A stretch of 64,000 nucleotides of DNA. Source: Georgenia satyanarayanai. GTDB taxonomy: Bacteria; Actinomycetota; Actinomycetes; Actinomycetales; Actinomycetaceae. Location of the stretch: positions 372,001-436,000 of the forward strand of contig NZ_JAMBNZ010000001.1 in the NCBI RefSeq assembly GCF_023715365.1. The letters are read 5' to 3'. Made by a program: the position numbers and the translations under genes. Below are positions 6,989 to 26,864 of this stretch, piece after piece; the first letter of the stretch is position 1; every line of letters starts with the position of its first letter. The notes under the pieces were generated by a model. The model saw nothing but the letters and a program-made list of their open reading frames with translations, was not told the origin of the DNA and ran no database searches.

Positions 6989-7009
6989 AGCCGGGAGCGG
7001 TGGGCGTCG

Positions 7010-8626: not shown

Positions 8627-8743
8627 CGGTCTGCGGCGCCTCGGATCGCCACCGGTGAGAGCCCGGGTGGCGAATCGTGGGCGCACGGGCCGGGCGTGCG
8701 GAAGGATGACTGGGTCACTGAGGACCCGACCGTGAGGAGCACG

Positions 8744-11930: not shown

Positions 11931-11967
11931 CCTCTTCCCCCAACGGTAGATCCGACCACTGACATCG
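11931..11967 (-). promoter_or_regulatory. PafBC-type (RecA-independent) DNA-damage promoter, proximal copy
   Basis: On the minus strand this 37-base segment reads TGTCAGTG (11964-11957), exactly 8 bases, then TACCGT (11948-11943). This equals the mycobacterial RecA-NDp motif tTGTCRgtg-N8-TAnnnT bound through PafBC. It lies 24 bases upstream of the DUF222-HNH start codon. Confidence 0.7.
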
Positions 11968-12073: not shown

Positions 12074-12110
12074 CCTCTTCCCCCAACGGTAGATCCGACC
12101 ACTGACATCG
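12074..12110 (-). promoter_or_regulatory. PafBC-type DNA-damage promoter, distal copy (exact 37-bp direct repeat)
   Basis: All 37 bases are identical to 11931-11967, 143 bases further upstream. TGTCAGTG is at 12107-12100 and TACCGT at 12091-12086. The DNA between the copies contains a GTGACGGCAC/GTGCCGTCAC hairpin and no gene. Together with the proximal copy this makes two tandem damage promoters for the HNH gene. Confidence 0.65.
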
Positions 12111-12126: not shown

Positions 12127-12215
12127 TTGACAGCCACACCCGCCCGGTGCCAAGATCTCGGCCATCCCCGGAAACGATTCCAACGGCTGCGACACCCAGC
12201 CCTGGAAACGTTTCC
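12127..12215 (+). promoter_or_regulatory. Promoter and two LacI-type operators of the sugar/ADP-ribosylglycohydrolase operon
   Basis: TTGACA (12127-12132), an 18-base spacer and CAAGAT (12151-12156) form a promoter, with the start expected near 12163. Downstream are GGAAACGATTCC (12170-12181) and GGAAACGTTTCC (12204-12215), near-perfect and perfect 12-base palindromes centred on CG, the hallmark of LacI/GalR operators. They are 34 bases apart, about three helical turns, which suits cooperative road-block binding by the regulator encoded just after. Confidence 0.8.
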
Positions 12216-12259
12216 GAATCGGGCCTGGCACCACCACTCAACGACGAAGGAGGGCGACA

Positions 12260-13318
12260 GTGACGTCTCCACGCGCGACGCTCATCCAGGTCGCCCGCCG
12301 CGCCGGGGTCTCCCTCGCCTCCACCTCCCGCGCCCTGCACGGCACCGGTGCCAGCCCCGCGATGGTCGAGCGCGTACGTGCCGCCGCCGAGGAGCTCGGG
12401 TACCGCCCCCACGAGACGGGCCGGTCCCTGCGCATGAAGCGCACCTTCCAGGTCGCCTTTGCCGTCGCCGACATCGGCAACCCCGTCTACATCGAGATGC
12501 TCACCGCGATCCACGCGGTCCTCGCGCCGCACGGCTACCGCGTCGTCGTCATGTCCACCGGGGGCACGGTCGCCTCGACCGTCGACCTCGTCCACAGCCT
12601 CGACGGCGGCTTCGTCGACGGCATGATCATCAGCCCGCTGCGCGTGGACGACGCCTTCGTCACCGCCGTCGAGGAGGCCACGGTCCCCGTCGTCGTCATC
12701 GGCCGCTCCCTGGCCGACCACGGCATCGACTCCGTCTCCACCGACTCCACCGGCGGCATCGTGCAGGCGGTCGACCACCTCGTCGCCGTCGGCCGCCGCC
12801 GGATCGGCTTCCTCAACGGCCCCCTCGACACCACCCCGGGCGAGGCCCGGCAGCGCGGCTTCGACGCCGCCACCCGCACCGCCGCCTTCACCGCCGCGAA
12901 CGGCGGCACCGAGGTGGCCGAGGACTTCACCGTCACCGCCGGCCTCGCCGCCGCCCACCGCCTCCTCGACCGCGCCGACGACGCCGGCACCCCCCTCGAC
13001 GCCGTCGTCGCCGCCAACGACCTCCTCGCCATCGGTGCCATCCGCGCCGCCGGCGAGCGTGGACTCACCGTGCCCGGCGACCTCGCCGTCACCGGCATGG
13101 ACGACACCGACATCGGCCGTGTCTTCCAGCCCAGCCTCACGAGCGTCTCGCTCGGCTCGGGCCGGCGCGGCCACCTCGCCGCCGAGCTCGTGCTCGGCCT
13201 CGTCGACGACGGTGAGGAGCGGGGCCGGTACGTCACCGTCGGCCCCGAGCTCATCGTCCGTGAGTCGTCCGTGTCCGCCCCCACCCCATCCCCCTCACCA
13301 CGCAAGGAGGACGCATGA
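12260..13318 (+). CDS. LacI-family repressor of the adjacent catabolic operon
   Basis: A 352-residue LacI/GalR regulator. The N-terminal helix-turn-helix (TLIQVARRAGVSLASTSRAL) with hinge helix (GYRPHETGRSLRMKRT) is followed by a type-1 periplasmic-binding-like effector domain, with 'DIGNPVYIEMLTAIH', 'FLNGPLDTTPGEARQRGF', 'AVVAANDLLAIGAI' and 'VTGMDDTDIGRVFQPSLTSV'. The hinge has RSLRM rather than the common 'ARSL'. The GTG at 12260 has AAGGAGGGC upstream. The stop overlaps the start of the first permease (ATGA), so the regulator is the first gene of its own operon and is autoregulated through the two palindromes upstream. The ligand is unknown. Confidence 0.88.
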   Translation: MTSPRATLIQVARRAGVSLASTSRALHGTGASPAMVERVRAAAEELGYRPHETGRSLRMKRTFQVAFAVADIGNPVYIEMLTAIHAVLAPHGYRVVVMSTGGTVASTVDLVHSLDGGFVDGMIISPLRVDDAFVTAVEEATVPVVVIGRSLADHGIDSVSTDSTGGIVQAVDHLVAVGRRRIGFLNGPLDTTPGEARQRGFDAATRTAAFTAANGGTEVAEDFTVTAGLAAAHRLLDRADDAGTPLDAVVAANDLLAIGAIRAAGERGLTVPGDLAVTGMDDTDIGRVFQPSLTSVSLGSGRRGHLAAELVLGLVDDGEERGRYVTVGPELIVRESSVSAPTPSPSPRKEDA

Positions 13319-14289
13319 CGGCACCGATGCTCGCCGCAGGAGCGCGGCCGGACGCACCCGCGCCCCGGCCCAGCCGCGGCTCACCCCGTCGCCGCAGCGG
13401 GCTCGATCGGGCCCGGCGCCGTGAGGCCGCCGCGCTCGTCATCCCCTCGCTCATCCCGATCCTCGTGCTCAGTGTCGCGCCCCTCATCGTCGGCGTCGCG
13501 CTCGCCTTCACCGACGCGCGCCTCGTGCGCAACCCGGAGTACACCTTCGTCGGCACCGAGAACTTCGCCCGGCTGCTCGACAACTCCTTCTTCTGGGACT
13601 CCTTCCGCATCGGCATGGTCTGGGCGGTGTCGGTCACGCTGCTCCAGCTGCTCGCCGGGATGGGTTTGGCGCTGCTCCTCAACTCCGGCCTGCGCCTCCA
13701 GGGCCTCACCCGCGTCCTGGCCCTCATCCCGTGGGCGATGCCGCCCGTCGTCGTGGCGATCATGTGGCAGATGATCTACTCGCCCAACGCGGGGCCGCTC
13801 AACGCCGTCCTCGGCGGCATCGGCCTGCCGGACGACATCAACTGGCTCGCCAACTTCTCCACCGCGCTGCCCGCCGTCATCGTCGTCGGCGTGTGGGTCG
13901 GCATGCCACAGACCACCGTCACCCTCCTCGCCGGCCTCCAGCAGATCCCCGAGGAGCTCCACGAGGCCGCCTCGATGGACGGGGCCAGCGCGTGGCGCCG
14001 CTTCACCGCTGTCACCTGGCCCTCGCTGCGCCCGATCGTCACCTCGATCACGTCGCTGAACTTCATCTGGAACTTCAACTCGTTCTCGCTGGTCTACGTC
14101 CTCACCGAGGGCGGCCCCGGCGGCCGGACGATGCTGCCGATGCTCTTCACCTACCTCGAGGCGTTCAAGAACCGGAACATCGGCTACGCCGCCGCGATGG
14201 GCGTCGTCCTCGTCGTCGTCGTCGTCATCCTCCTCGCCGTCTACCTGTGGTCCCAGTTCCGCGAGGACAGCACCGAGAGGAAGGGCTGA
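13315..14289 (+). CDS. Sugar ABC transporter permease (MalF/UgpA type)
   Basis: A 324-residue inner-membrane permease of the carbohydrate-uptake-1 family. Six or more membrane segments follow a positively charged N-terminus; the cytoplasmic EAA loop reads 'EELHEAASMDGASAWRRFTAVTWPSLRPIV', the site that contacts the ATPase. Start ATG overlaps the repressor stop (ATGA), with AGGAGG 4 bases upstream. It pairs with the permease at 14294 and the binding protein at 15162. No ATPase gene is in the operon, so a shared MsiK-type ATPase, usual in actinobacteria, must energise it. Confidence 0.9.
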   Translation: MTAPMLAAGARPDAPAPRPSRGSPRRRSGLDRARRREAAALVIPSLIPILVLSVAPLIVGVALAFTDARLVRNPEYTFVGTENFARLLDNSFFWDSFRIGMVWAVSVTLLQLLAGMGLALLLNSGLRLQGLTRVLALIPWAMPPVVVAIMWQMIYSPNAGPLNAVLGGIGLPDDINWLANFSTALPAVIVVGVWVGMPQTTVTLLAGLQQIPEELHEAASMDGASAWRRFTAVTWPSLRPIVTSITSLNFIWNFNSFSLVYVLTEGGPGGRTMLPMLFTYLEAFKNRNIGYAAAMGVVLVVVVVILLAVYLWSQFREDSTERKG

Positions 14290-14293
14290 GCCG

Positions 14294-15121
14294 ATGCGCA
14301 CCCTGATCCGCCCCGCCCAGTACGCGGCGCTCGTCGCCTACATCGTCTTCCTGGGCTTCCCGCTCCTGTGGCTCATCTCGGCCTCGTTCAAGTCCTCGGG
14401 GGAGCTCAACTCGCTCTCGATCAGCCTGCTGCCGGGCGAGTGGCACTGGGAGAACTACTCCAACGCCCTCGCCCGTCAGGGCCTGGTGCGCTCCGCCGCC
14501 AACAGCGCCGCCGTCGCCCTCGTCTCCACGGTGCTCGTCATCGTCATCGCGATGCCGACGGCGTACGTCCTGGCCCGCCTCAAGGGCAAGGTCCGGGCCG
14601 CCGGGATCGGCTGGATCCTCGTGAGCCAGGTCTTCCCGGTCATCCTTATCATCCTGCCGCTCTTCCTCATCCTGCGGACGCTCGGCCTCACCGACAGCCT
14701 CGTCGGCCTCACCCTCGTCCACACGACCTACACGTTGCCCTTCGCGCTGTGGATGCTCCAGGGCTACGTCACCGGCATCCCGGTGGACCTCGAGGAGGCC
14801 GGCTCGATGGACGGCGCCGCCCGGCTGCGGGTGCTGCGCTCGATCGTCTTCCCGCTGCTCGTCCCGGGAGTCGTCGCGACCGCGATGTTCTCCTTCGTCT
14901 CCTCGTGGAACGAGTTCTTCTTCGCCCTCGTCCTCCTGCAGTCCCCGGAGAACTACACCCTGCCCATCACGCTGAAGATGTTCATCGGCGGCGAGGGCAA
15001 GGTGGCGCTCGGCCCGCTGGCGGCCGGCTCCGTGCTCGCCGCGATCCCCAGCATCGTCTTCTTCTCGATCATGCAGCGCAAGCTCGTCGGCGGCCTCATG
15101 TCCGGCGCCGTCAAGGGCTGA
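14294..15121 (+). CDS. Sugar ABC transporter permease (MalG/UgpE type)
   Basis: A 275-residue partner permease with six predicted membrane segments, beginning MRTLIRPAQYAALVAYIVFLGFPLLWL. The EAA loop is 'DLEEAGSMDGAARLRVLRSIVFPLLVPGV'. The protein ends 'MQRKLVGGLMSGAVKG', the typical MalG-type tail. It starts 4 bases after the first permease stop, with AGGAAGG overlapping that gene's end. Together the two form the membrane channel of an importer for an unidentified oligosaccharide or glycoside. Confidence 0.9.
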   Translation: MRTLIRPAQYAALVAYIVFLGFPLLWLISASFKSSGELNSLSISLLPGEWHWENYSNALARQGLVRSAANSAAVALVSTVLVIVIAMPTAYVLARLKGKVRAAGIGWILVSQVFPVILIILPLFLILRTLGLTDSLVGLTLVHTTYTLPFALWMLQGYVTGIPVDLEEAGSMDGAARLRVLRSIVFPLLVPGVVATAMFSFVSSWNEFFFALVLLQSPENYTLPITLKMFIGGEGKVALGPLAAGSVLAAIPSIVFFSIMQRKLVGGLMSGAVKG

Positions 15122-15161
15122 CACCCAGACCCCACCCCCATCCCCCTCGAAAGGTCGACCA

Positions 15162-16445
15162 ATGAAGATCCGTGGAGCCTCCACAGCCGCATGCCTCACG
15201 ATCGCCGCGCTCACCCTCGCCGCCTGCGGTGGCGGGGGCGACGACGGCGGCAGTGCCGACGGGCCCGTGACCCTCAAGTTCCAGTCCCTCTCCGACCAGC
15301 CCGCCGCCATCGAGGCGACGGAGGCGATCGTCGCCGAGTGGAACGAGGCCAACGCCGACGTCCAGGTGGAGATCGTCCCCGCCGGCTGGGACGGCATCTA
15401 CGACAAGCTCATCACCCAGTTCAACGGCGGCGCCGCCCCCGACGTCATCCACTACGAGGCGGCGAGCATCGTCCCCTTCGCCCGCGACGGCTACCTCGCC
15501 GACCTCTCGGAGTACATGTCCGACGAGCGCCGCGCCGACATCCCCGAGGGCATCCTCGACTCGGTGACCGTCGACGACCAGGTCATCGCCTACCCCACCG
15601 AGCTGCAGTCCTACATGGTCTTCGCCAACACCGCGCTCCTGGAGGAGGCGGGCGTCGAGGTCCCCACCGGGGAGACGATGACGTGGGAGCAGCTGCGCGA
15701 GATCGCGCAGACGACGACGACGGACGACACCTACGGCCTCGGCTGGGGCCTGGCGAGCCCGACGGCGGCGTTCATGTCCTTCGCCCCGGGCTTCGGCGGC
15801 ACCTTCTTCGAGGGCACCGGCACCGACGCGAGCATCACGATCGGTGAGGGCGAGCTGGCCGTGCCCGAGCTCGTCCACACGATGGCCTTCGAGGACGAGA
15901 CGGTCCTCCCGGTCACCCTCACGCAGTCCGGCTCCGAGGTCCTCGCCTCCTTCTACGCCGGCCAGATCGCCATGACGGTCCAGGGCTCCTTCCAGGCCGC
16001 CAACATCGCCACCGACGCCCCCGAGGGCTTCGAGTGGACCGTGCTGCCCCCGCTCGAGGGCCCGCAGGGCGCCGGCCAGGCCGCCAACCCGCAGACCCTC
16101 TCGGTCAACATCGACTCCGAGCACGTCGAGGAGTCCGCCGAGTTCATCGAGTTCTTCACCGAGACCGAGAACCTCGCCGCCCTCAACGAGGCCGACGCGC
16201 TCATCCCGGCGACGACCTCCGCCCAGGAGTACATGGCCGAGAACCTCGGCGACGAGAACGGCTGGGCGACGATCCTCTCCTCCGGCCAGCACCTCGTCTC
16301 CGCGCCGTACCTGTTCGTCGACGCCTACGCGCAGTGGAAGGACACCGTGGCCACGCCCGCCTTCCAGCGCTACCTGGCGCAGGAGATCGACACCGCCGGC
16401 CTCGGCACGCAGCTCGAGGACGGCTGGGCCGAGATCACCGGCTGA
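15162..16445 (+). CDS. Sugar ABC transporter substrate-binding lipoprotein
   Basis: A 427-residue extracellular solute-binding protein (family 1). A lipoprotein signal with lipobox LTLAAC near residue 21 is followed by a GGGGDDGGS linker. The mature part has the family pattern: 'VTLKFQSLSDQPAAIEATEAIVAEWNEANADVQVEIVP' and 'DKLITQFNGGAAPDVIHYEA'. The ATG at 15162 has GAAAGG upstream. It lies between the permeases and the enzyme genes. A hairpin and a five-copy GC repeat follow, which could lower expression of downstream enzymes relative to this abundant protein. The ligand is not predictable; aromatic residues in the cleft suggest a carbohydrate. Confidence 0.9.
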   Translation: MKIRGASTAACLTIAALTLAACGGGGDDGGSADGPVTLKFQSLSDQPAAIEATEAIVAEWNEANADVQVEIVPAGWDGIYDKLITQFNGGAAPDVIHYEAASIVPFARDGYLADLSEYMSDERRADIPEGILDSVTVDDQVIAYPTELQSYMVFANTALLEEAGVEVPTGETMTWEQLREIAQTTTTDDTYGLGWGLASPTAAFMSFAPGFGGTFFEGTGTDASITIGEGELAVPELVHTMAFEDETVLPVTLTQSGSEVLASFYAGQIAMTVQGSFQAANIATDAPEGFEWTVLPPLEGPQGAGQAANPQTLSVNIDSEHVEESAEFIEFFTETENLAALNEADALIPATTSAQEYMAENLGDENGWATILSSGQHLVSAPYLFVDAYAQWKDTVATPAFQRYLAQEIDTAGLGTQLEDGWAEITG

Positions 16446-16452
16446 CCCCGTC

Positions 16453-16485
16453 GCGGGGCGGGTCCGATCACTGGGCCCGCCCCGC
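16453..16485 (+). terminator. Hairpin after the binding-protein gene
   Basis: Thirteen-base arms (16453-16465, 16473-16485) with one G-U pair and a 7-base loop, starting 8 bases after the stop. It probably acts as a partial terminator or an RNA-stabilising hairpin inside the operon. Confidence 0.5.
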
Positions 16486-16491
16486 CACACC

Positions 16492-16581
16492 CCGGCCGCC
16501 CCGCGGCCACCGGCCGCCCCGCGGCCACCGGCCGCCCCGCGGCCACCGGCCGCCCCGCGGCCACCGGCCGCCCCGCGGCCA
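16492..16581. repeat. Five exact tandem copies of an 18-bp GC repeat
   Basis: The unit CCGGCCGCCCCGCGGCCA is repeated five times without change. Each unit can fold by itself (GGCCG/CGGCC with loop CCCCG), giving a row of small hairpins between the binding-protein gene and the first ADP-ribosylglycohydrolase gene. Copy number is likely to vary between strains. Confidence 0.9.
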
Positions 16582-16617
16582 CCGCACGTACCGCAACACG
16601 AAGGCAGGAGTAGATCT

Positions 16618-17781
16618 GTGAGCTGGCTGGACGATCGATGCGTGGCGGTGATCACCGGCGCCGCCGTCGGGGACGCCCTGGGGGGAGCCACCGAGGGGTG
16701 GACCCCGGAGCAGATCGAGGAGCGCCACGGCGGCCGGGTGCGCGGCATCGTCGGCCCCTGGTACGAGAACTGGCGCACCGCGCGCCCGATCGCGCCCTAC
16801 CACAAGGGTGACGGGCACATCACCGACGACACCCTCATGACGCAGGCGCTGGTGGAGGTCTACGCCAAGCGGCGCGACCACCTCGACGCCTACGCCGTGG
16901 CCGAGGACCTCGTCCCGCTCATGATCGGCGAGCCCCGCTGGATCCCCGAGCTGGAGAGCGAGGCGCTCATCCTCCAGCGCGTCTTCCTCGCGGAGAAGTG
17001 GATCGTCGCCCGCCTCCACTACGGGCACGTGGACCCGCGCGAGGCCGGCGTCGGCAACGTCGTCAACTGCGGCGCGGCCATGTACATGGCGCCCGTGGGG
17101 CTGGCCAACGCCGGCGACCCGCGCGCCGCCTACGCCGAGGCGATCGACGTCGCCGGGGCCCACCAGTCCAGCTACGGGCGTGAGGCGGCCGGAGTCTTCG
17201 CCGCCATGGTCGCCGCCGCCGTCGCCCCCGGTGCGAGCGTCGACGCCGTCACCCGCGCCGCCCTCGACGTCGCCCACGACGGGACCGCCGCCGCCCTGCG
17301 CGCCGTCGTCGACGCCGTCGCCGGCCGCGACGTCCCCACCGACGACGACGGCGAGCGCAAGCTGGCCCGTGTCATCCGGGAGGCCGTGGCACCGTTCGAC
17401 TCCGTGGGCCCGGAGTACCGGCAGATGTCGATGGACGCCCGCCGCCCCTCGCGCACGAAGTCCATCGAGGAGCTGCCCGCGGCGCTGGGCTTCGTCCTCG
17501 GCCACCGCGGTGACTTCCGCGGCGCCGTCCTTGGGGCGGTCAACTACGGCCGTGACGCCGACTCGATCGCCGTCATGGCCGGCGCCGTCTGCGCGGGCCT
17601 CGGCGGGACCGAGGTGGTGCCCACCGAGTGGCTCGACGCGATCGAGACCGCCAGCCGCACCGACGTGCGCGCCACCGGCCGGCTCATGGCCGGCGTGGCC
17701 ACCGACATCCTCCGCGCCGACCGGGAGCGCGCCCGCGCCCGCGCCGCGGCGCTCGAGCAGCTGGAGGGGGCGTCGGCATGA
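16618..17781 (+). CDS. ADP-ribosylglycohydrolase-family hydrolase (first of two)
   Basis: A 387-residue all-helical DraG/ARH-fold protein. The two metal-site motifs are present: an N-terminal 'AAVGDALGGATEG' with 'HITDDTLMTQAL' near residue 68, and a C-terminal 'NYGRDADSIAVMAGAVCAGLGG' near residue 305. Classical members remove ADP-ribose from protein side chains with two Mg ions; many operon-encoded relatives act on small ribosylated or glycosylated molecules instead. The length exceeds DraG (about 295), with an extra helical region around 'PEYRQMSMDARRPSRTKSIEE'. The GTG at 16618 has AGGAG upstream. Its stop overlaps the next gene (ATGA). Sitting in a sugar-import operon, it more likely cleaves an imported glycoside than modified protein (inference). 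Confidence 0.85.
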   Translation: MSWLDDRCVAVITGAAVGDALGGATEGWTPEQIEERHGGRVRGIVGPWYENWRTARPIAPYHKGDGHITDDTLMTQALVEVYAKRRDHLDAYAVAEDLVPLMIGEPRWIPELESEALILQRVFLAEKWIVARLHYGHVDPREAGVGNVVNCGAAMYMAPVGLANAGDPRAAYAEAIDVAGAHQSSYGREAAGVFAAMVAAAVAPGASVDAVTRAALDVAHDGTAAALRAVVDAVAGRDVPTDDDGERKLARVIREAVAPFDSVGPEYRQMSMDARRPSRTKSIEELPAALGFVLGHRGDFRGAVLGAVNYGRDADSIAVMAGAVCAGLGGTEVVPTEWLDAIETASRTDVRATGRLMAGVATDILRADRERARARAAALEQLEGASA

Positions 17782-19160
17782 GGCTGACCTGGGCCCAGCC
17801 CGAGGATCTCCTCGCGCACGAGCTCGTCCAGTCCGCAGCCGAGGGGCGGGACGTCACCGCTGTCCGCGAGCGCTGGGTGGCCGCCGGCGGGGACCCGGTC
17901 CCGGCCGTGAGCGGCGCCGGCCCGGTCCCCGCTCCCCCGGCCCTGCGCGCCCTGGCCCGCGAGCTGCTCGACGAGCTCGCCGCCACCCCGGCCCCGCCGT
18001 CGCCGGCCGAGCCGGACGAGTGGGAAGAGATCGCCGCCCTGCTGGCCCCGGCCCCGCAGCTCGTCGGCCGCCCCGACGACGCGGCCTACCGCGAGCGCCT
18101 CGTCGGCGCGTGGACCGGCCGCGCCGCCGGGTGCCTGCTCGGCAAGCCGGTGGAGAAGATCCCGCGGCAGGGCATCGAGGAGATCCTCCGGGCCACCGGA
18201 CGCTGGCCGCTGGACCGCTGGTTCACCGCCGTCGGCCTGCCCGGCGACGTCGCGGCCCGCTGGCCGTGGAACCGCCGCTCGGCGCCGACCTCGCTGGAGG
18301 AGAACATCTCCGGCATGCCCGAGGACGACGACCTCAACTACCCGATCCTCGCCCTCGCCCTCCTCGAGCAGCACGGCCACGGCTTCACGACCGAGGACGT
18401 CGCCCAGCTGTGGCTCGACAACCTCCCCGCAGGGCGGGTCTTCACCGCCGAGCGCGCCGCCTACCGCAACATCCTCGACGCGCGCCCGGTCCCGGAGACG
18501 GCCACCCACCACAACCCCTTCCGGGAGTGGATCGGGGCGCTCATCCGCACCGACCTCCTCGGCTGGGTGCTGCCCGGTGACGTCCGCGCCGCCGCCCGCC
18601 TCGCCTGGGCCGACGCGCGCCTGAGCCACACCCGCAACGGCGTCTACGGCGCGATGTGGGCCGCGGCCCTCGGCGCGGCGACGATGGTGTGCGACAGCGT
18701 CGAGGACGTCCTCGACGCTGCCGACGCCGCCGTCCCGCCCGCCAGCCGGCTCGCCGCCGCGATACGCCTGGGCCGTGAGGCGGGGGCTGCCTGCGACGGC
18801 ACCGAGCCCGCCGTCCGGGACGGCCTGGACCGGCTCCACGCCGCATACGGAAACCTGCACTGGGTCCACACGCTGGGCAACGCCGCGACGATCGCCTTCG
18901 CGCTCACCGCCGGGCGTGAGGACTTCGGGGCCAGCGTGTCGATCGCCGTCATGGCCGGCTGGGACACCGACTCCGCGGCGGCCACGGTCGGCGCGGTGGT
19001 CGGCGGCCTCCGCGGCGCCGACGGGATCGGCGAGCAGTGGACCGCGCCCCTCCAGGGACGGATCGCCACCTCGCTGCCCGGCGGGGAGCAGCGCATCACC
19101 GACCTCGCCGAGCGCACCCTCGCGCTGGCCGTCCCGCTCCCCGCGGCGGTGACCCCGTGA
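17778..19160 (+). CDS. ADP-ribosylglycohydrolase-family hydrolase (second of two)
   Basis: A 460-residue paralogue that starts inside the stop codon of the first (ATGA). The first 100 residues are an extra region (MRLTWAQPEDLLAHELVQSA, an alanine/proline-rich linker). The hydrolase core starts at 'RERLVGAWTGRAAGCLLGKPVE'; the metal motifs are 'EDDDLNYPILALALLE' near residue 181 and 'VMAGWDTDSAAATVGAVVGGL' near residue 393. The EDDDLNY form of the first motif differs from the TDDT of its partner, so substrate or geometry may differ. Side-by-side pairs suggest two successive hydrolyses or a heteromer. It overlaps the ribokinase start (GTGA). Confidence 0.85.
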   Translation: MRLTWAQPEDLLAHELVQSAAEGRDVTAVRERWVAAGGDPVPAVSGAGPVPAPPALRALARELLDELAATPAPPSPAEPDEWEEIAALLAPAPQLVGRPDDAAYRERLVGAWTGRAAGCLLGKPVEKIPRQGIEEILRATGRWPLDRWFTAVGLPGDVAARWPWNRRSAPTSLEENISGMPEDDDLNYPILALALLEQHGHGFTTEDVAQLWLDNLPAGRVFTAERAAYRNILDARPVPETATHHNPFREWIGALIRTDLLGWVLPGDVRAAARLAWADARLSHTRNGVYGAMWAAALGAATMVCDSVEDVLDAADAAVPPASRLAAAIRLGREAGAACDGTEPAVRDGLDRLHAAYGNLHWVHTLGNAATIAFALTAGREDFGASVSIAVMAGWDTDSAAATVGAVVGGLRGADGIGEQWTAPLQGRIATSLPGGEQRITDLAERTLALAVPLPAAVTP

Positions 19161-20116
19161 GCGCAAGGCACGTCGCGGCCGGCGGCGCCGCGGCGGTGGC
19201 GACGCCGGTCGGTGCCGGGCGCGTCGTCGTCGTCGGCTCCGCGAACGTCGACCTCGTCGTCCCGGTGCCGCGCCACCCGGCCGGCGGCGAGACCGTGCTC
19301 GGCGGCACGCTCGAGCGCCACCCCGGCGGAAAGGGCGCCAACCAGGCCGTCGCCGCCGCGCGGGCGGGCGGCGCGGACACGAGCTTCGTCGGTGCCCTGG
19401 GCAGCGACGAGTCCGGCGAGCTGCTCCACGCCTCCCTCGCCGGCGCCGGGGTACGCACCGACCTCATCGCGCGCGTCGCCGAGCCCACCGGCACCGCGCT
19501 CATCTCGGTGGACCCGGGCGGTGAGAACACGATCATCGTCGCGCCCGGCGCCAACTCCCACGTCACGGTGGGCACCGAGCAGGCAGCCCGGATCGCGGAG
19601 GCGGACGTCGTCCTCGCCCAGCTCGAGATCCCGCTCGAGGCGATCCTCGCGGCCTCGGCCGCCCGCCGGGAGGGCACGCTCCTCGTCCTCAACGCCGCCC
19701 CCTCCAGGGAGCTGCCGGAGGAGGTGTGGACCGCCGTCGACGTCCTCGTCGTCAACGAGCACGAGGCGGCCGACCTCGCCGGCCGCGGTGACGGTGCCGA
19801 GCCGGCGGACCTGGCGCACGCGCTGCTCGCCCGGGTGCCCGCCGTCGTCGTCACCCTCGGGGGTGCCGGGAGCCTGGTCGCCGAGCGCGACGGGGAACCC
19901 GTCCACGTCCCCGCGTTCCCGGTGGAGCCCGTCGACACGACGGGCGCCGGGGACACCTTCTGCGGCGTTCTCGCCGCAGCCCTCGCCGGTGGTGCCACCC
20001 TCGCCGACGCTGCCCGCCTCGCGGCCGCGGCCGGCGCCCTGGCCACCACCGCCCCCGGCGCGCAGGAGTCCGTCCCCACCGCGACCGCCGTCGCGGACCT
20101 CGCGCGCCACCGCTGA
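19157..20116 (+). CDS. rbsK: Ribokinase (PfkB family)
   Basis: A 319-residue PfkB-family sugar kinase. Signatures: 'VVGSANVDLVVPVPRHPAGGETVLGG' at the substrate face, 'HPGGKGANQAVAAARAG' (PfkB motif 1), and 'VDTTGAGDTFCGVLAAAL' with the catalytic Asp (motif 2). The NVDL/GGKGANQA pattern fits ribokinase rather than fructokinase. It would phosphorylate the free ribose (or a similar sugar) released by the two hydrolases encoded just upstream. The GTG at 19157 overlaps the preceding stop, so the three are translationally coupled. No ribosome site of its own is evident. Confidence 0.85.
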   Translation: MSARHVAAGGAAAVATPVGAGRVVVVGSANVDLVVPVPRHPAGGETVLGGTLERHPGGKGANQAVAAARAGGADTSFVGALGSDESGELLHASLAGAGVRTDLIARVAEPTGTALISVDPGGENTIIVAPGANSHVTVGTEQAARIAEADVVLAQLEIPLEAILAASAARREGTLLVLNAAPSRELPEEVWTAVDVLVVNEHEAADLAGRGDGAEPADLAHALLARVPAVVVTLGGAGSLVAERDGEPVHVPAFPVEPVDTTGAGDTFCGVLAAALAGGATLADAARLAAAAGALATTAPGAQESVPTATAVADLARHR

Positions 20117-20130
20117 GCAAGAAAGGCGTC

Positions 20131-22167
20131 ATGTACACGTTCGACCCCCTCGTCCCGCGACTCATCGACCTCCCCACCGAGGTGCCCCTCGACGGCCTCA
20201 CCACCGAGCAGTCCACGGCGCTGGACGAGGCGAAGATCTTCGTCGGGCCGGCTGACCCGGCCGACCGGCCGGCGTGGCGCGAGGCCCTGCACCACTGGCG
20301 CGAGGCCGCCCGCGCGCGACACGGCTACCGCGGCGCCGCCTACGAACGGCCGGGGGCGGCGTGGGCCGCGCGGTGCCACACCGTCGCCCAGGTGTGGCTG
20401 TGGGACGAGCTGCTCTACTCCTTCGAGGAGCACCGCTTCACCCCCGAGCGCTTCCTCGCCGACGCCCGCGAGCGCTTCGGCGGGCTCGACGCCGTCGTCC
20501 TGTGGCACGCCTACCCGGTCATCGGCATCGACGACCGCAACCAGTGGGACTACTACCGCGACGTGCCCGGCATCGTCGAGCTCGTCCGCGAGCTGCACGA
20601 CGCGGGCCTGCACGTCTTCGTCGACTACAACCCGTGGGACACCGGCACCCGCCGCGGCGCCGACGACGTCACCGAGCTGGCCGACGTCGTCTCCTGGCTC
20701 GGCGCCGACGGCGTCTTCCTCGACACGCTGAAGAAGGCCGAGCCCGAGCTCGTCGCGCGCCTCGAGGAGGCCCGCCCGGGGATCGTCCTCGAGGGCGAGT
20801 CCAAGCTTGCCGTCGAGCGCATCGAGGACCACTCCTCCTCGTGGGCGCAGTTCTTCGCCGACTCCCCCGTGCCGGGCGTGCTGCGCGCGCACTGGTACGA
20901 GCGGCGCCACATGCAGCACCACGTGCGCCGCTGGCACCGCGACCACTCCGAGGAGCTGCAGTCCGCCTGGCTCAACGGCGTGGGCGTCATGGTGTGGGAG
21001 GTCGTCTTCGGCGTGTGGGTCGGCTGGACCCCGCGTGACGCCGCGACCGTGGCCCGGATGGTCGCCGTCCAGCGCGCCGCCGGCGACCTCCTTCTCGAGG
21101 GCGAGTGGACGCCGCTCACCGAGCTCGCGCCGGAGGCCGACGCCGCGGGCGTCCACGCCTCCCGCTGGGAGCTGGACGGCCTCACCCTGTGGACCCTCGT
21201 CAACCGCGGCTCGGAGGACTGGACCGGTCCCGTCCTTCCCGACGGCGCCGTCACCGGCGGCCGGCTCCTCGCCCTCACCGACGACGACGGCGCGGGCCCG
21301 GTCACCGTGCCGGGCCGCGGGATCGCCGCGCTGCTCCACGTCGCCGACGGCGTCGCCGCGCCCGAGTGGCTCCCCGGCCTCCAGGAGGAGCTCGCCCGCC
21401 GCCCCCACGTGCCGGACGCCCGCTTCCCGCACCGCCTCGCCCGCCGTGTCACCACCACCCCGGCGGGCCCCACCCCCCTCCCCGCCGACAGCGGAGTTGT
21501 CTCCGACGCTGCCCAGCCCCCCGCCGTCGTCGTCCCGGCGGGCGAGCACGTCCTCACCGTGCGCCACCGCGCGCGGGAGACCGGCATGTACCAGGGCGCG
21601 CCCTACGTCGACGAGTGGAAGCCGCTGCCCCCGCGCCTGCACGACGCGCGCACCCTCCAGCGCGAGCTCACCCTGCGGGCGCCGGTCGCCGTCGCCGTCC
21701 ACGAGGTGACGAACGAGGAGTTCGCCGTCTTCCTCGACGCGACCGGCTACCGGCCAGCCGTCGAGCACCGCTTCCTCGTCCACTGGCTCGAGGGCCGCCC
21801 CGCCCCGGGCACCGAGGACGAGCCGGTGACCTTCGTCGACCTCGACGACGCCCGCGCCTACTGCGCCTGGCGCGGCGGCCGGCTGCCCACCGAGGACGAG
21901 TGGCAGCTGGCAGGCGAGACCGGTGAGCTGCACCGCGGCACCCCGGCGGTGTGGAGCTGGACCGAGAGCGAGCACAGCGACGGCCGCACCCGCTTCGTCA
22001 TGCTCAAGGGCGGCAGCGACTACCGCGCCGAGGGCTCGGACTGGTACGTCGAGGGCGGCGTCCACGCCCCCGACCACTCCCTCAAGTACCTCCTGCCGGG
22101 GCTCGGCACGGCTCGCTCGGCGACCATCGGCTTCCGCTGCGCCTGGGACGGGGAGGTGACCCGATGA
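20131..22167 (+). CDS. Glycosidase-like barrel fused to a SUMF1/FGE-like domain
   Basis: A 678-residue cytoplasmic protein without a signal peptide. Residues about 1-460 look like a (beta/alpha)8 glycoside-hydrolase-type barrel: 'GLDAVVLWHAYPVIGIDDRN', 'GLHVFVDYNPWDTG', 'GADGVFLDTLKK' and 'GIVLEGESKL' sit at successive strand ends and offer Asp/Glu candidates; a beta-sandwich follows. Residues about 500-678 are a SUMF1/FGE-sulfatase-type domain ('VHEVTNEEFAVFLDATGY', 'ARAYCAWRGGRLPTEDEWQLA', 'TIGFRCAWDG'). The Cys pair that performs formylglycine formation is absent: the region reads 'LKGGSDYRAEGSDWY'. So sulfatase activation is unlikely; this domain may bind substrate. It starts 14 bases after rbsK and overlaps the CoA-transferase start. 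Confidence 0.7.
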   Translation: MYTFDPLVPRLIDLPTEVPLDGLTTEQSTALDEAKIFVGPADPADRPAWREALHHWREAARARHGYRGAAYERPGAAWAARCHTVAQVWLWDELLYSFEEHRFTPERFLADARERFGGLDAVVLWHAYPVIGIDDRNQWDYYRDVPGIVELVRELHDAGLHVFVDYNPWDTGTRRGADDVTELADVVSWLGADGVFLDTLKKAEPELVARLEEARPGIVLEGESKLAVERIEDHSSSWAQFFADSPVPGVLRAHWYERRHMQHHVRRWHRDHSEELQSAWLNGVGVMVWEVVFGVWVGWTPRDAATVARMVAVQRAAGDLLLEGEWTPLTELAPEADAAGVHASRWELDGLTLWTLVNRGSEDWTGPVLPDGAVTGGRLLALTDDDGAGPVTVPGRGIAALLHVADGVAAPEWLPGLQEELARRPHVPDARFPHRLARRVTTTPAGPTPLPADSGVVSDAAQPPAVVVPAGEHVLTVRHRARETGMYQGAPYVDEWKPLPPRLHDARTLQRELTLRAPVAVAVHEVTNEEFAVFLDATGYRPAVEHRFLVHWLEGRPAPGTEDEPVTFVDLDDARAYCAWRGGRLPTEDEWQLAGETGELHRGTPAVWSWTESEHSDGRTRFVMLKGGSDYRAEGSDWYVEGGVHAPDHSLKYLLPGLGTARSATIGFRCAWDGEVTR

Positions 22168-23372
22168 GCGTCTCCCGTGACGCCTCGGCCGGGGCCCTCG
22201 CCGGCCTGCGCGTCGTCGACGCCTCCACCCTCTTCGCCGGCCCGATGGCGGCGATGCACCTGGGTGACATGGGCGCCGACGTCGTCAAGGTCGAGCACCC
22301 CGACAGGCCCGACCCCTCCCGCAACCACGGCGCCGCCAAGGACGGGGTCAACCTGTGGTGGAAGACGCTGGGGCGCAACAAGCGCACCGTGACCGCCAAC
22401 CTCGGCAGCTCCGGCGGGCGGGAGGTGTTCCTCGCGCTGGCCGAGCGGGCCGACGTCGTCATCGAGAACTTCCGCCCCGGCACCCTGGAGCGGTGGGGCC
22501 TGGGCTACGAGGAGCTGTCTGCGCGCAACCCGCGGCTCGTCCTCGCCAGGGTGAGCGGCTTCGGGCAGGTGGGCCCCTACCGGACGCGTCCCGGCTTCGG
22601 GACGCTCGCCGAGGCGATGAGCGGCTTCGCGGCGATGACCGGGGAGCCGGACGGCCCGCCCACGCTACCGCCCTTCGGTCTGGCCGACGGCGTCGCGTCG
22701 CTCGCCACGGCCTTTGCCGTCATGGTGGCGCTGCAGTCGCGGGAGCGGACGGGGCACGGGCAGGTGGTCGACATGGCCATCATCGAGCCGATCCTCGCGA
22801 TGCTCGGCCCGCAGATCACCCGCTGGGACCAGCTGCGCACCGTGCAGCCGCGCACCGGCAACCGCTCGGCGAACAACGCCCCGCGCAACACCTACCGCAC
22901 ACGCGACGGGCAGTGGGTGGCGGTCTCGACGTCGGCGCAGTCGATCGCCGAGCGCGTCATGCGGTTGGTCGGGCGGCCCGAGCTCATCGAGGAGCCGTGG
23001 TTCGCCCGCGGTGCGGACCGGGCGGCGCACGCCGACGTCCTCGACGACGCCGTCGGCAGCTGGATCGCCGAGCGCACGCGCGACGAGGTGGTGGCCGCCT
23101 TCGAGGAGGCGCAGGCCGCCGTCGCCCCGATCTACGACGCGCAGGACATCGTCGCCGACCCGCAGTTCCAGGCCCTCGGGACCCTCCACGAGATCGAGGA
23201 CCCCGAGCTGGGCCCGATGCTCATGCAGGGACCGCTGTTCCGGCTCTCCGGCGCCGACGGCGTCATCCAGTTCACCGGCCGCGAGCACGGGGCGGACACC
23301 GACGCCGTGCTCGAGGAGCTCGACTTCCCCGCCGAGCGGGTGGCCGAGCTGCGCCAGGAGGGGGCGGTATGA
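22164..23372 (+). CDS. CaiB/BaiF-type (class III) CoA-transferase
   Basis: A 402-residue family III CoA-transferase. It starts 'LAGLRVVDASTLFAGPMAAMHLGDMGADVVKVEHPDRPD', then 'WWKTLGRNKRTVTANL' and 'VVIENFRPGTLERWGLGYEEL', the standard CoA-contacting segments. These enzymes move CoA between carboxylic acids. In formyl-CoA transferase the nucleophilic Asp sits in a 'YDxxxQAxxG' context; here the aligned stretch is 'GFGTLAEAMSGFAAMTG', with Gly at that position, so the chemistry may differ. ATGA overlap with the preceding gene and with the lyase after it. It probably activates an organic acid for the lyase encoded next (inference). Confidence 0.85.
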   Translation: MSVSRDASAGALAGLRVVDASTLFAGPMAAMHLGDMGADVVKVEHPDRPDPSRNHGAAKDGVNLWWKTLGRNKRTVTANLGSSGGREVFLALAERADVVIENFRPGTLERWGLGYEELSARNPRLVLARVSGFGQVGPYRTRPGFGTLAEAMSGFAAMTGEPDGPPTLPPFGLADGVASLATAFAVMVALQSRERTGHGQVVDMAIIEPILAMLGPQITRWDQLRTVQPRTGNRSANNAPRNTYRTRDGQWVAVSTSAQSIAERVMRLVGRPELIEEPWFARGADRAAHADVLDDAVGSWIAERTRDEVVAAFEEAQAAVAPIYDAQDIVADPQFQALGTLHEIEDPELGPMLMQGPLFRLSGADGVIQFTGREHGADTDAVLEELDFPAERVAELRQEGAV

Positions 23373-24208
23373 GCCTCCCGCCGCCGCTCACGCTGCTCTA
23401 CGTGCCGGGCGACCGGCCGGACCGGGTGGCGAAGGCGCTGGCGTCCGCGGCCGACGCCGTCATCGTCGACCTCGAGGACGCCGTCGCGCCGAGTGCCAAG
23501 GACGCGGCGCGGTCCGCCGTGGCGGAGCTGCTCGCTTCGGTGCCGTCCGGTCGCGCCGTGCAGGTGCGCGTCAACGCGGCCACCATGCCGTGGCACGCCG
23601 ACGACGTCGCCGCCGTGGCCGCGCTGCCGGCTCACGTGGGGCTGCGGCTGCCCAAGGCCGAGCACCCGGCCGCGGTGGACGCGCTCGTCTCGCGGGTGCG
23701 AGGACGCGAGGTGCACCTGCTCGTCGAGTCCGCGCTCGGGGTGGAGCGTGCCTTCGCGCTCGCCTCGGTCCCCGGGGTGTCCTCGATCGGGCTCGGGGAG
23801 GCGGACCTGCGCTCCGAGCTGCGCGTGGACGACGACGCCGGGCTCACCTGGGTCCGCAGCCGCGTGGTCGTCGCCGCGCGGGCAGCCGGGCTGCCTTCCC
23901 CCGTCATGTCCGTCTACCCGCACGTGAAGGACCTGGCCGGGCTCGCCGAGTCCTGCCGGGCCGGGCGGCGGCTCGGCTTCAGCGGCCGTACCGCCATCCA
24001 CCCGGCCCAGCTCGACACGATCCGCGCGGCCTTCCTGCCGACCCGCGAGGAGGTCGAAAGGGCACGGGAGGTCGTCACGCGCGTGGAGGATGCCGTCGCC
24101 GCGGGCACCGGTGCCCTCGTGCTCCCGGACGGGAGCTTTCTCGACGTCGCCATGGTCGAGCGCGCCCGCGCCACCCTCGCCCTCGCCGAGCACCACGGCG
24201 CCACCTGA
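23369..24208 (+). CDS. HpcH/HpaI aldolase / CitE-like acyl-CoA lyase
   Basis: A 279-residue TIM-barrel lyase of the CitE/malyl-CoA/citramalyl-CoA lyase type. Motifs: 'LYVPGDRPDRVAKALASAADAVIVDLEDAV', 'QVRVNA', 'LRLPKAEHP', the Mg-ligand region 'VESALGVERAFALASVPGV' and 'GLGEADLRSEL', and the C-terminal 'GRTAIHPAQLDTIRAAFLPT'. Family members split a beta-hydroxyacyl-CoA into acetyl- or propionyl-CoA and a 2-oxo acid. It is the last gene of the operon, coupled by ATGA to the CoA-transferase, a pairing known from itaconate/citramalate and related degradation. No hydratase gene is present. A repeat arm and a 181-base gap follow. Confidence 0.85.
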   Translation: MSLPPPLTLLYVPGDRPDRVAKALASAADAVIVDLEDAVAPSAKDAARSAVAELLASVPSGRAVQVRVNAATMPWHADDVAAVAALPAHVGLRLPKAEHPAAVDALVSRVRGREVHLLVESALGVERAFALASVPGVSSIGLGEADLRSELRVDDDAGLTWVRSRVVVAARAAGLPSPVMSVYPHVKDLAGLAESCRAGRRLGFSGRTAIHPAQLDTIRAAFLPTREEVERAREVVTRVEDAVAAGTGALVLPDGSFLDVAMVERARATLALAEHHGAT

Positions 24209-24389: not shown

Positions 24390-26864
24390 ATGAGCTCAGC
24401 CCGCCTCTCGCGGCGCCTGGCGGTGACGGCAGCAGTCGCCGTCGTCGCCGGTGCGTCGCTCACCCTCCCCGCGCTCGCCGCCGAGCAGGGCACCCTCGTG
24501 CCCGCCGAGGCCACCGGCACCGCCGCCGGCACGGTCGACTACACGGTCTACCTCCCGCCCGGCTACGACGACAGCACCGACCGCTACCCCACCGTCTACC
24601 TCCTCCACGGCCGCGGGGACACCCAGGCCGCCTGGCAGCGGGTCGCCACCGACCTCGACGAGCTCATCACCTCCGGTGAGCTCCAGCCCGTCGTCGCCGT
24701 CATGCCCGACGCCCCCTGGAACGACCGCGGCAGCTGGTACACCGACTCCCTCTACACCGGTGACGCCGCCTCCGGGCCGGGCCTGCCCGTGGAGACCGCG
24801 CTCGCCGAGGACCTCGTCGAGCACGTCGACGCCACCTACCGCACCGTCGCGCACCGCGAGGCGCGCGCCGTCGGGGGTTACTCGATGGGCGGTGCCGGCG
24901 CGCTGCGCGTGGCGCTCGCCCACCAGGAGGACTTCTCCGCCGGCATCGTCCTCAGCCCCGCCGCGTACGTGCCCCAGCCACCGGCCGACTCGTCGGTCCG
25001 CGACTACGGCGCCTACGGCGTCGGCGACGCGCTCTTCGACGCCGACCGCTACACCGAGCTCTCCTACCCGACGGCGCTCGAGTCCCTCGATCCCGCACTG
25101 CCGGTCCACCTGTTCGTCGCCGTCGGCGACGACGAGTGGCCCAACCCGGACCCGGCCGAGGCGCAGCACGACATCGACCTCGAGTCGGCCCAGCTCTACA
25201 ACACCGCGCGGCGCGTGCCGGGCGTGACGGCCGAGCTGCGCGTCCTCGACGGCGGGCACGACTGGGACGTGTGGCAGCCCGCCTTCCGCGAGGCGATCGT
25301 CGACGTCGGGCAGCGCCTGCGGACCGAGCCCGCCGCGACCTGGGACGCCGAGCTGCTCGGTTCCGCGGGTGACGACCGCGCCGGCGGGATCGTCGAGACG
25401 GCCGACGGCGGGAGCGTCGTCGCCCTCAACCTTGCCGGTGCGTGGGACGGCTACGAGCCGGCCGGCGGGATGGACACCCTTCTCGTGCGCCGCGCGGCGG
25501 ACGGCACGGAGGCCTGGCGTCACGCCATCGCGACCGGCGCGAACGACCGCGCCTACGGCGTCGTCAACGGGGCCGACGACGGCGTGCTCGTGGCCGGCTA
25601 CACGCGCGGCACCCTCGCCACGGGCGAGGCGGACACGCAGGACGACGCGTTCGTCGCGGCGGTCGACGCCGCCGGTGAGCGCACGTGGACGCTCGAGCTC
25701 GGTGACCCGGGCGCGGCCGACCGCTTCTACGCGATCGCCCCGGACGGCGACGGCGGCGCGTACGTCGCCGGGTACACGAGCGGCAGCTTCGCCGGCACAC
25801 CGAGCGCCGGCGACAAGGACGCCGTCCTCGCCCGCGTCTCGGCCGGCGGCGAGCTGCTGTGGAGCACCCAGCTGGGCGGCTCCGGTGAGGACAAGGCGAT
25901 GGCCGTCGCGCTGACGAGCGACGGGGACGTCGTCGTCGGCGGCGTGAGCGGCGCCGGGCTGCCCGGTGCCGAGCACCTCGGCTCCGGCGACGGCTGGGTC
26001 GCGCGGTACGACGCCGACGGCGAGCAGCAGTGGGTCCGTGCGGTCGCCACCGCGGAGAACGACATGGTGAGCGGCCTCGTGCCGCTGGCCGACGGCGCGG
26101 TGCTGGCCGTCGGGCAGACCAAGGGCGTGCTCGGTGAGGCGGCACTCGGGGACAACGACATCGTCGTCCGGGCGCTGACCGCCGACGGCGAGGAGTCGTG
26201 GACGCTGCAGACCGGCACGTCCACTGACGACCGGGGCGTCACCGGCGTGGCGACCGCCGACGGCGGGGCGCTCGTCCTCGCGACGACCTACGGCGCGATG
26301 GGCGAGCCGCTGGGCGGGGTCGACGTCGTCGCGCTGCCCGTCTCGGCCGACGGCGTGGCCGGCGAGCCGCTCCAGCTCGGCTCCCGCGACCGCGACGGCG
26401 CCGACGAGTGGGACGAGGCCAACCTCTTCGCGGCGCCCGGGACGGAGGGCACGTGGCTGAGCGGGCTGACCTTCGGGGCACCGGACGGCGCGGTCAACGC
26501 CGGGGCGGGCGACGTCTTCGTCATGCGGCTGGCGTCCACGCCGGGGGAAGAGCCGACCGAGGAGCCGACGACGGCAGAGCCGAGCGAGCCCGAGCCCGAG
26601 CCCGAGCCGACCGTGACGCCCGGGGAGCCGAGCAGCCCGGAGCCGACCGTCACGCCGACGGACGGGCCCGCCCCCACGGACGGGCCCGGCAGCGAGTCGC
26701 CCGAGCCCAGCGCCACCCCGGTCCCGCCGGTGACGGACACCGCCTCCGGCGCGGGCGGGCTGCCCTCCACCGGCGCCGCGGTCATCGGTGCGGCCGTGCT
26801 CGCGCTGCTGCTCGCGGCGGCCGGCGCGGTGCTCGTGGCCCGCCGCCGCGGAGTCGCCGCCTGA
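24390..26864 (+). CDS. Wall-anchored (LPXTG) esterase with beta-propeller-like region
   Basis: An 824-residue surface protein. Signal peptide (SRRLAVTAAVAVVAGASLTLPALA) is followed by an alpha/beta-hydrolase of the esterase D/feruloyl-esterase type: 'YTVYLPPGYD', 'TVYLLHGRGDTQAAW', nucleophile Ser165 in 'GGYSMGGAGAL', and 'DGGHDWDVWQPAF' with the catalytic His. Residues about 325-715 hold tandem 45-residue repeats ('GGAYVAGYTSGSF', 'SGEDKAMAVALTSDGDVVVGG'), an SBBP-like propeller. A Pro/Glu/Thr stalk (EPEPEPEPTVTPGEP) leads to LPSTG (about residue 791), a membrane helix and RRR, the sortase signal. The ATG has AAGGAG 6 bases upstream. A role in deacylating plant polymers is likely but unproven. 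Confidence 0.85.
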   Translation: MSSARLSRRLAVTAAVAVVAGASLTLPALAAEQGTLVPAEATGTAAGTVDYTVYLPPGYDDSTDRYPTVYLLHGRGDTQAAWQRVATDLDELITSGELQPVVAVMPDAPWNDRGSWYTDSLYTGDAASGPGLPVETALAEDLVEHVDATYRTVAHREARAVGGYSMGGAGALRVALAHQEDFSAGIVLSPAAYVPQPPADSSVRDYGAYGVGDALFDADRYTELSYPTALESLDPALPVHLFVAVGDDEWPNPDPAEAQHDIDLESAQLYNTARRVPGVTAELRVLDGGHDWDVWQPAFREAIVDVGQRLRTEPAATWDAELLGSAGDDRAGGIVETADGGSVVALNLAGAWDGYEPAGGMDTLLVRRAADGTEAWRHAIATGANDRAYGVVNGADDGVLVAGYTRGTLATGEADTQDDAFVAAVDAAGERTWTLELGDPGAADRFYAIAPDGDGGAYVAGYTSGSFAGTPSAGDKDAVLARVSAGGELLWSTQLGGSGEDKAMAVALTSDGDVVVGGVSGAGLPGAEHLGSGDGWVARYDADGEQQWVRAVATAENDMVSGLVPLADGAVLAVGQTKGVLGEAALGDNDIVVRALTADGEESWTLQTGTSTDDRGVTGVATADGGALVLATTYGAMGEPLGGVDVVALPVSADGVAGEPLQLGSRDRDGADEWDEANLFAAPGTEGTWLSGLTFGAPDGAVNAGAGDVFVMRLASTPGEEPTEEPTTAEPSEPEPEPEPTVTPGEPSSPEPTVTPTDGPAPTDGPGSESPEPSATPVPPVTDTASGAGGLPSTGAAVIGAAVLALLLAAAGAVLVARRRGVAA

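Follow-up and report, generated by a model that had tools for sequence, protein, structure and literature searches.

Bacterial gene groups in which a protein of the ADP-ribosylglycohydrolase (ARH) fold lies beside a transporter and a sugar kinase have been described in Escherichia coli and in staphylococci, and here we compare them with a ten-gene run in a 64,000-nucleotide stretch of Georgenia satyanarayanai DNA (the window; forward-strand positions 372,001 to 436,000 of contig NZ_JAMBNZ010000001.1, from a 3.72-Mb assembly). The E. coli yegTUV operon, a target of GgaR/YegW, resembles the run in joining an importer, an ARH-family protein and a sugar kinase in one repressed operon. However, as far as the published account describes it, its importer is a nucleoside-type major facilitator superfamily symporter rather than an ATP-binding cassette (ABC) system, there is a single ARH protein, and neither CaiB nor CitE is mentioned; the GntR regulator is reported to sense ADP-glucose, and the functions of the genes are stated to be unclear (PMC10819704). 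The staphylococcal genes SERP2216-2218 likewise place an ARH protein, a permease and a ribokinase side by side, although the permease is of the cytosine/purine/allantoin type and no acid genes are listed in the part of the paper that names them (PMC3637587). Published lists of DraG/ARH homologues include four uncharacterised proteins of Streptomyces coelicolor, SCO2028-SCO2031, as putative ADP-ribosyl hydrolases (all four in PMC9411070, the first three in PMC5087735); the passages concerned treat them as candidate ADP-ribosyl hydrolases and give no operon or catabolic context. With U-alpha-ADPr, the single substrate named in the relevant passage, no activity of SCO2028 or SCO2030 could be detected (PMC13036486). 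The acid genes of the run recall itaconate/citramalate degradation, where activation by a CoA-transferase is followed by a CitE-family lyase, and RipC_Ccl (NF038242) is the best NCBIfam model of our CitE. That pathway also uses a hydratase, whereas no hydratase gene lies in the operon and the RipC_Ccl score of CitE, 135.7 bits, is far below the equivalog cut-off of 375. Succinate-hydroxymethylglutarate CoA-transferase (SUGCT) shares the class III fold with our CaiB, although the similarity is at the family level. No description of a pathway with this gene set was found in the open-licence PubMed Central literature, in line with an initial annotation of the window, which knew of none; passages of PMC5036795 and PMC2217521 likewise contained nothing relevant to it.

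Our comparisons argue that the run (12260-24208, all genes on the + strand and all reading frames open) is a real, conserved and apparently singly regulated operon that brings together known enzyme kinds in a new combination. Each of the ten proteins carries a Pfam domain (LacI, BPD_transp_1 twice, SBP_bac, ADP_ribosyl_GH twice, PfkB, FGE-sulfatase, CoA_transf_3 and HpcH_HpaI), and every gene named in the initial annotation is present; the genes are listed in Table 1 under the names used below. In gene order, the junctions measure -4, 4, 40, 172, -4, -4, 14, -4 and -4 bases. The earlier description of nearly all junctions as overlapping or 4-14 bases long is accurate for seven of the nine (-4 to 14) but not for the 40- and 172-base gaps, which sit on either side of the gene for the solute-binding lipoprotein (SBP).

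Table 1. Genes and sequence features of the run and of the gene that follows it; positions are those of the window.
Feature	Position	Strand	Family matches and remarks
Operator-like site GGAAACGATTCC	12170-12181	+	LacI-type; exact GGAAACGNTTCC match
Operator-like palindrome GGAAACGTTTCC	12204-12215		LacI-type; exact GGAAACGNTTCC match
LacI-family repressor	12260-13318	+	PF00356, PF13377
Permease A, ABC sugar type	13315-14289	+	PF00528; best NCBIfam UgpA, MalF, all below cut-offs
Permease B, ABC sugar type	14294-15121	+	PF00528; NCBIfam GlcU, MalG, all below cut-offs
Solute-binding lipoprotein (SBP)	15162-16445	+	PF01547, PF13416
18-bp GC-rich tandem repeat, 5.2 copies, 100% match	16492-16584		SBP-ARH1 gap
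ARH1, ADP_ribosyl_GH hydrolase	16618-17781	+	PF03747 3.6e-47
ARH2, ADP_ribosyl_GH hydrolase, ~100 extra N-terminal residues	17778-19160	+	PF03747 4.6e-41
PfkB-family kinase, ribokinase-like	19157-20116	+	PF00294; TIGR02152 273 bits
Barrel/FGE protein (protein 8): glycosidase-like TIM barrel and FGE/EgtB-like domain	20131-22167	+	PF03781 at residues 509-600
CaiB, class III (CaiB/Frc) CoA-transferase	22164-23372	+	PF02515 2.3e-118
CitE/RipC-type C-C lyase	23369-24208	+	PF03328 (HpcH_HpaI)
Secreted wall-anchored esterase with propeller repeats	24390-26864	+	PF00756, PF06739; PF00746 just under cut-off

Conservation was assessed in 80 named loci. They are the best of 176 that were retrieved using the barrel/FGE protein as query, and the sample is hence biased to its carriers. 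Genes in these relatives were called with our own codon-usage script rather than taken from annotation, and the script missed some real genes: lacI in L056 and citE in L075 and L095 are absent from its calls and present by tblastn. Judged by the barrel/FGE protein, Oceanitalea stevensii and Georgenia stand nearest among the named relatives. The complete ten-gene set stands in the same order in 61 of the 80 loci, so gene order appears to be conserved beyond chance, and the claim that the genes belong together as one unit held up. Eight loci carry nine genes and lack PfkB, one of them (L085) being broken by frameshifts. The other 11 comprise five cut by contig ends (L038, L046, L047, L082 and L086), the three affected by caller misses, L079, where the assembly is gapped and an 88% CaiB match lies on another contig, and the two truly partial loci L041 and L092, to which we return below. 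Unrelated genes are absent from the labelled run in 79 of the 80 loci, the exception being L098 (Kribbella); there, three opposite-strand genes, partly phosphatase-like by eye, lie between ARH1 and ARH2 (5322-7727). CaiB was also called in 73 of the 74 loci in which both ARH1 and ARH2 were called. Junctions of at most 20 bases were found for LacI-permease A in 46/72, permease A-B in 73/74, permease B-SBP in 7/74, SBP-ARH1 in 12/74, ARH1-ARH2 in 69/74, ARH2-PfkB in 62/65, PfkB-barrel/FGE in 55/66, barrel/FGE-CaiB in 74/77 and CaiB-CitE in 67/75. The pairwise distances of the six enzymes correlate at 0.92-0.96 (58 rows, window included), values that contain shared species history and therefore show joint inheritance rather than function. 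Operon unity of the ten genes is, on these comparisons, well supported.

The regulatory region points the same way. A LacI repressor, two BPD_transp_1 permeases and an SBP_bac_1 protein stand in one run with operators, which is the make-up of a LacI-controlled ABC sugar import operon, and the two putative LacI operators proposed earlier are present: GGAAACGNTTCC has two exact sites in the whole assembly, both directly before lacI. The one-mismatch pattern is not enriched in the assembly (19 strand-matches in total versus 27 for a reversed-pattern control). Seventy of the named loci have a called lacI preceded by 250 bases or more, and in 66 of them a looser operator 12-mer lies before the gene; we counted 116 such sites in 20,370 nt before lacI versus 6 in the DNA downstream of there (at most 1.48 Mb, a length that includes some unscanned upstream DNA). 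The run apparently has LacI as its single regulator, and we consider it very probable that it is a LacI-repressed, inducible catabolic operon. With an operator that apparently has a single target, the inducer should be directly findable with a reporter. The 18-bp repeat in the SBP-ARH1 gap could affect expression or be neutral.

We then considered what the encoded proteins are likely to do. ARH1 and ARH2 belong to the ADP_ribosyl_GH family (161.8 and 141.8 bits versus a PF03747 gathering threshold of 26.2) and are the assembly's only PF03747 members. Residues E26, T69-D70-D71, D313, D315 and S316 of ARH1 are kept in 87-88 of 88 near-full-length copies, and E126, E182, D183-D185, D396, D398 and S399 of ARH2 in 87 of 87; by analogy with ARH3 and DraG, we take these to be metal-site residues and a catalytic Glu. 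An AlphaFold model of ARH2 (predicted local distance difference test, pLDDT, 89.9) shows the ARH fold as predicted, with Foldseek matches to DraG 3o5t (TM-score TMt 0.76) and MJ1187 (TMt 0.74). ARH1 lies below the equivalog cut-offs of the DraG/Tri1-type models (57.9 versus 337.05 bits for TIGR02662 and 45.2 versus 490 for NF041672), and ARH2 has no match at 0.001 to named ADP-ribosyl hydrolase models (DraG, Tri1). For the kinase, which the initial annotation had called a ribokinase (RbsK), the likeness was upheld by the best solved match (ribokinase 6znx, 2e-64) and by the top models: PfkB scores 273 and 231 bits with ribokinase models and at most 98 with any other PfkB model, although it stays under the TIGR02152 cut-off. 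Its residues N30, D32, G57-K59, N62, E157 and D266 are kept in 73 of 73 copies and presumably have ribokinase-type roles. Among PfkB-less relatives, 8 of 9 contain another ribokinase-like gene, 42-50% identical at best. The ribokinase match, together with ARH genes beside ribokinase or importer genes in Agrobacterium, Mycolicibacterium, staphylococci and E. coli, speaks for ribose by analogy, and we put ribose or a near relative as the sugar at about an even chance. A second ribokinase-like gene, ~70% identical to PfkB, lies outside the window ~60 kb away in the same assembly (L179:10467-11384), where it clusters with ABC transporter, phosphotriesterase-family and glutamine-amidotransferase-like genes.

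CaiB is a class III CoA-transferase by its PF02515 score (395.9 bits versus a gathering threshold of 23.3), and SUGCT 9br6 is among its best solved matches (5.8e-48). Its D174 is kept in 89 of 89 copies and aligns with the Asp of solved relatives; we take it to occupy the place of the catalytic Asp of Frc. We also considered that the catalytic role might have passed from an Asp to a Glu, E207, which is likewise kept in 89 of 89. This idea was dropped because D174 lines up with the Asp of the solved relatives, and the alignments put E207 at another, variable position. In CitE, D34, E36, D37, R67, E120 and D146 are kept in 85 of 85 copies, and an acyl-CoA lyase (PDB 8khl, 1.4e-40) is a solved match. 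A separate CaiB (69%)-CitE (51%) pair at L177, whose neighbours include cyclase-family and MmgE/PrpD genes along with a second importer, lends support to an acid branch as read from the sequences. The barrel/FGE protein was modelled with a pLDDT of 81.4. Foldseek matched its barrel part to amylase-, fucosidase- and arabinopyranosidase-type glycosidases (TMq ~0.24-0.33, root-mean-square deviation 7-11 Å) and its C-terminal part to EgtB (TMq 0.18-0.19). No known glycoside hydrolase family was found: PF03781 is the sole Pfam match at E 0.01 or better, and it is partial (profile positions 28-127 of 255). Barrel residues D193, D198, E221 and E223 are kept in 85 of 85 copies and D165 in 81 of 85, and by position they could be catalytic acids. 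FGE or EgtB chemistry was rejected for this protein, as no cysteine is found among the invariant and near-invariant columns of 29 sequences, and FGE depends on catalytic cysteines. The Pfam scan, the sole search for one, found no EgtB iron-site domain.

Since the 80 loci are biased to carriers of the barrel/FGE protein, a bait-free test was made by ARH2 alignment search, which gave matches in 55 of 296 class genomes. One region was read from each of 16 of the 55: twelve with close ARH1 and ARH2, three with a distant ARH2 homologue (L158-L160) and one without gene calls under the high-GC codon model (L151). Eleven of the 12 (all but L154) have CaiB and CitE on the same strand, and nine have PfkB. 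One or two further ARH-like genes accompany 11 of the 12, upstream of ARH1 in ten of these and downstream of ARH2 in L147; both of those in L148 and two in L019 have a PF03747 match, and the remainder rest on 26-32% BLAST matches or reading by eye. In L145 and L146 the succession is two further ARH-like genes, ARH1, ARH2, PfkB, CaiB and CitE. SCO2028-SCO2031 are likewise four consecutive ARH homologues, and gene order and locus numbers suggest that they are probably the ARH genes of L145 and L146. Two small opposite-strand genes, toxin-antitoxin-like by eye, stand between CaiB and CitE in L153 (12714-13435).

Beyond these loci, four of 21 plasmid records with an ARH1 match were examined, three from rhizobia and relatives and one from Nonomuraea. 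The Nitratireductor, Agrobacterium and Pseudochrobactrum regions carry LacI, permeases, SBP and an ARH1 homologue (38-43%) followed by UgpC, so that ugpC lies within the cluster in all three; two of the three have a long second ARH gene and one a ribokinase. Plasmids of Agrobacterium and Mycolicibacterium place ARH genes beside a ribokinase and a sugar importer. On a Sphingopyxis plasmid (L111:77-8379) a TonB receptor is followed by a ribokinase (51% to PfkB), a barrel/FGE homologue (31%), a GH127-type protein and a distant CoA-transferase (35%), and in Spirosoma a barrel/FGE homologue adjoins GH28. We read this as two modules, one for a riboside and one for an acid, that appear to have been joined in Actinobacteria. 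Finding ARH and CoA genes apart in related genomes had been named at the outset as evidence against a joint pathway; among the actinobacterial loci examined such separation is seldom seen (L092 is a case), and most of the cases lie elsewhere, as in the three plasmid regions. The comparisons speak against a fixed set of six enzymes, as first proposed: hydrolases, kinase and acid genes stand together in most relatives, but PfkB is absent from 8 of the 80 loci and the barrel/FGE protein from 7 of the 12 loci found with ARH2. What stands of the overall interpretation is that the genes for import and hydrolysis, the kinase gene and the acid genes form one regulated unit, which relatives retain.

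These data suggest the following route. The permeases and the lipoprotein would import a glycoside; because no ATPase gene was found among the ten, the importer ATPase is probably shared with other systems. In the cytoplasm, the two predicted metal-dependent ARH-fold hydrolases and the glycosidase-like barrel/FGE protein would cut glycosidic bonds; the most likely target of the ARH enzymes is the bond of a ribofuranosyl or similar cis-diol furanosyl group. PfkB would phosphorylate the freed pentose, probably ribose, and in loci that lack PfkB another ribokinase would take over this step. The acid would most likely be a beta-hydroxy di- or tricarboxylic acid of the citramalate, malate or 3-hydroxy-3-methylglutarate kind. 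CaiB would activate it, and CitE would then cleave it to a keto acid and acetyl-CoA or another acyl-CoA. Some genera might also use a secreted esterase to prepare the substrate outside the cell. The sugar, the acid, their presence in one molecule and each reaction step are inferred, and we assign the full chain, from an imported riboside-type compound to CoA activation and cleavage of its acid part, a probability of roughly 0.35-0.45. A related and somewhat bolder proposal, which we hold tentatively, is that this clade of ARH-fold proteins, which stand two to four in a row in the loci read, consists of dedicated carbohydrate-cleaving enzymes that dismantle a ribosyl compound linked to a beta-hydroxy acid and join ribokinase to the CaiB/CitE branch. 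If true, proteins now listed as ADP-ribosyl hydrolases are misnamed. If the route is right, it is a catabolic pathway recurring across actinobacterial families, it assigns a physiological function to ARH-fold proteins that are at present classed with ADP-ribosylation enzymes, and it indicates a natural molecule in which a furanose is combined with a hydroxy acid open to CoA activation. As possible substrates, bacillithiol, methanopterin, ascarosides, HMG-glycosides and rhamnogalacturonan-II sugars were considered and dropped. A substrate name was not taken from the SBP, whose solved relatives include maltose-binding, acarbose/maltose-binding and other sugar-binding proteins and are general sugar binders of modest similarity.

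A number of observations weigh against this route. CaiB and CitE score far below equivalog cut-offs, PfkB reaches 273.4 bits versus the curated TIGR02152 cut-off of 299.65, and it is missing from eight otherwise complete loci. The likeness of the barrel to glycosidases is one of fold alone and supports such a role weakly. Protein 8 is patchy: 12 of 149 relatives have it, spread over 5 of 71 genera, and an even phylum sample of 396 genomes gave a single match, in the genome of the window itself; it is also present in only 5 of the 12 loci found with ARH2. Despite this patchy spread, the set is nearly always whole where protein 8 occurs. L041 is truly partial, keeping just the permeases, SBP, ARH2 and the barrel/FGE protein, and the best CaiB of its genome is 38% identical. 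The operon of L092 lacks CaiB and CitE; that genome has two CaiB-CitE pairs elsewhere, and the neighbours of one of them are a second importer and genes of the cyclase and MmgE/PrpD families. No transporter gene adjoins the set in L145 and L146. In Nonomuraea L112, ARH-type genes and PfkB are present and CaiB and CitE had no match within 21 kb, L154 has ARH genes and no CaiB or CitE match in the stretch examined, and neither was matched in ~19 kb of each of the three rhizobial-type plasmid regions. Finally, a second promoter could lie within the 172-base SBP-ARH1 gap; a scan there found none, which is a weak test in such DNA.

Other explanations differ from the proposed route in the origin of the acid, the nature of the sugar or the role of the ARH proteins. 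Rather than an imported acid, CaiB and CitE might handle a carboxylic acid into which the sugar is converted at a later step, for instance by oxidation or dehydration. The pair is more constant than PfkB, being kept without it in 8 of the 80 loci, and in the Sphingopyxis relative the ribokinase, barrel/FGE, GH127-type and CoA-transferase genes lie near several dehydrogenases. However, no dehydrogenase or dehydratase gene occurs inside the labelled run in any of the 80 loci, where the three genes of L098 are the sole insertion, and we regard this origin of the acid as the less likely one, at about one chance in four. A little less likely still is that the ARH proteins and the barrel act on glycosides other than ribosides, such as alpha-glucosides or arabinofuranosides, with PfkB taking another sugar. 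The maltose- and acarbose-binding relatives of the SBP, the amylase-type resemblance of the barrel, the position of PfkB under the ribokinase cut-off and the replacement of the ARH genes by a GH127-type protein in Sphingopyxis would all suit such a substrate, whereas the far higher scores of PfkB with ribokinase models than with others and its conserved residues, whose ribokinase-type roles we presume, argue for ribose.

That ARH1 and ARH2 are true ADP-ribosyl hydrolases serving regulation or repair, with a regulatory rather than catabolic place in the operon, seems improbable. They share the Pfam family and fold of DraG and ARH3 and keep the metal-type and Glu residues, and SCO2028-SCO2031 are listed as putative enzymes of this kind (PMC5087735, PMC9411070). 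Against this, the ARH genes are placed between a sugar importer and catabolic enzymes, and the reported assay of SCO2028 and SCO2030 on U-alpha-ADPr detected no activity (PMC13036486). A role in defence was also considered and set aside, as none of the eight proteins submitted (the two permeases and the SBP were left out) had a PADLOC-DB match.

The esterase gene that starts 181 bases after CitE is an eleventh gene beyond the set first described. Of the 80 named loci, 18 have a homologue as the next gene after CitE, among them loci of Georgenia, Cellulosimicrobium, Oerskovia and Actinotalea. The spacing is -4 bases in L099, 3 in L067 and 49-571 in the other 16, and the predicted enzyme may prepare an acylated substrate outside the cell. 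In L042 (Promicromonospora) a PEP-mutase/isocitrate-lyase family gene abuts the end of CitE (14150-14932), and a gene annotated to the same family lies near the Sphingopyxis cluster. A second barrel/FGE gene, 50% identical and outside any ARH operon, was seen at L026:9608-11602 (genome G119), where it adjoins a LacI gene and is near PfkB- and sugar-importer-type genes. Upstream of the run in the window, an AAA-type ATPase-like gene was recognised by eye at 8696-10246, and an exact 25-base direct repeat at 11940-11964 and 12083-12107, found nowhere else in the assembly, lies at the start of what we take to be an HNH/DUF222-like gene.

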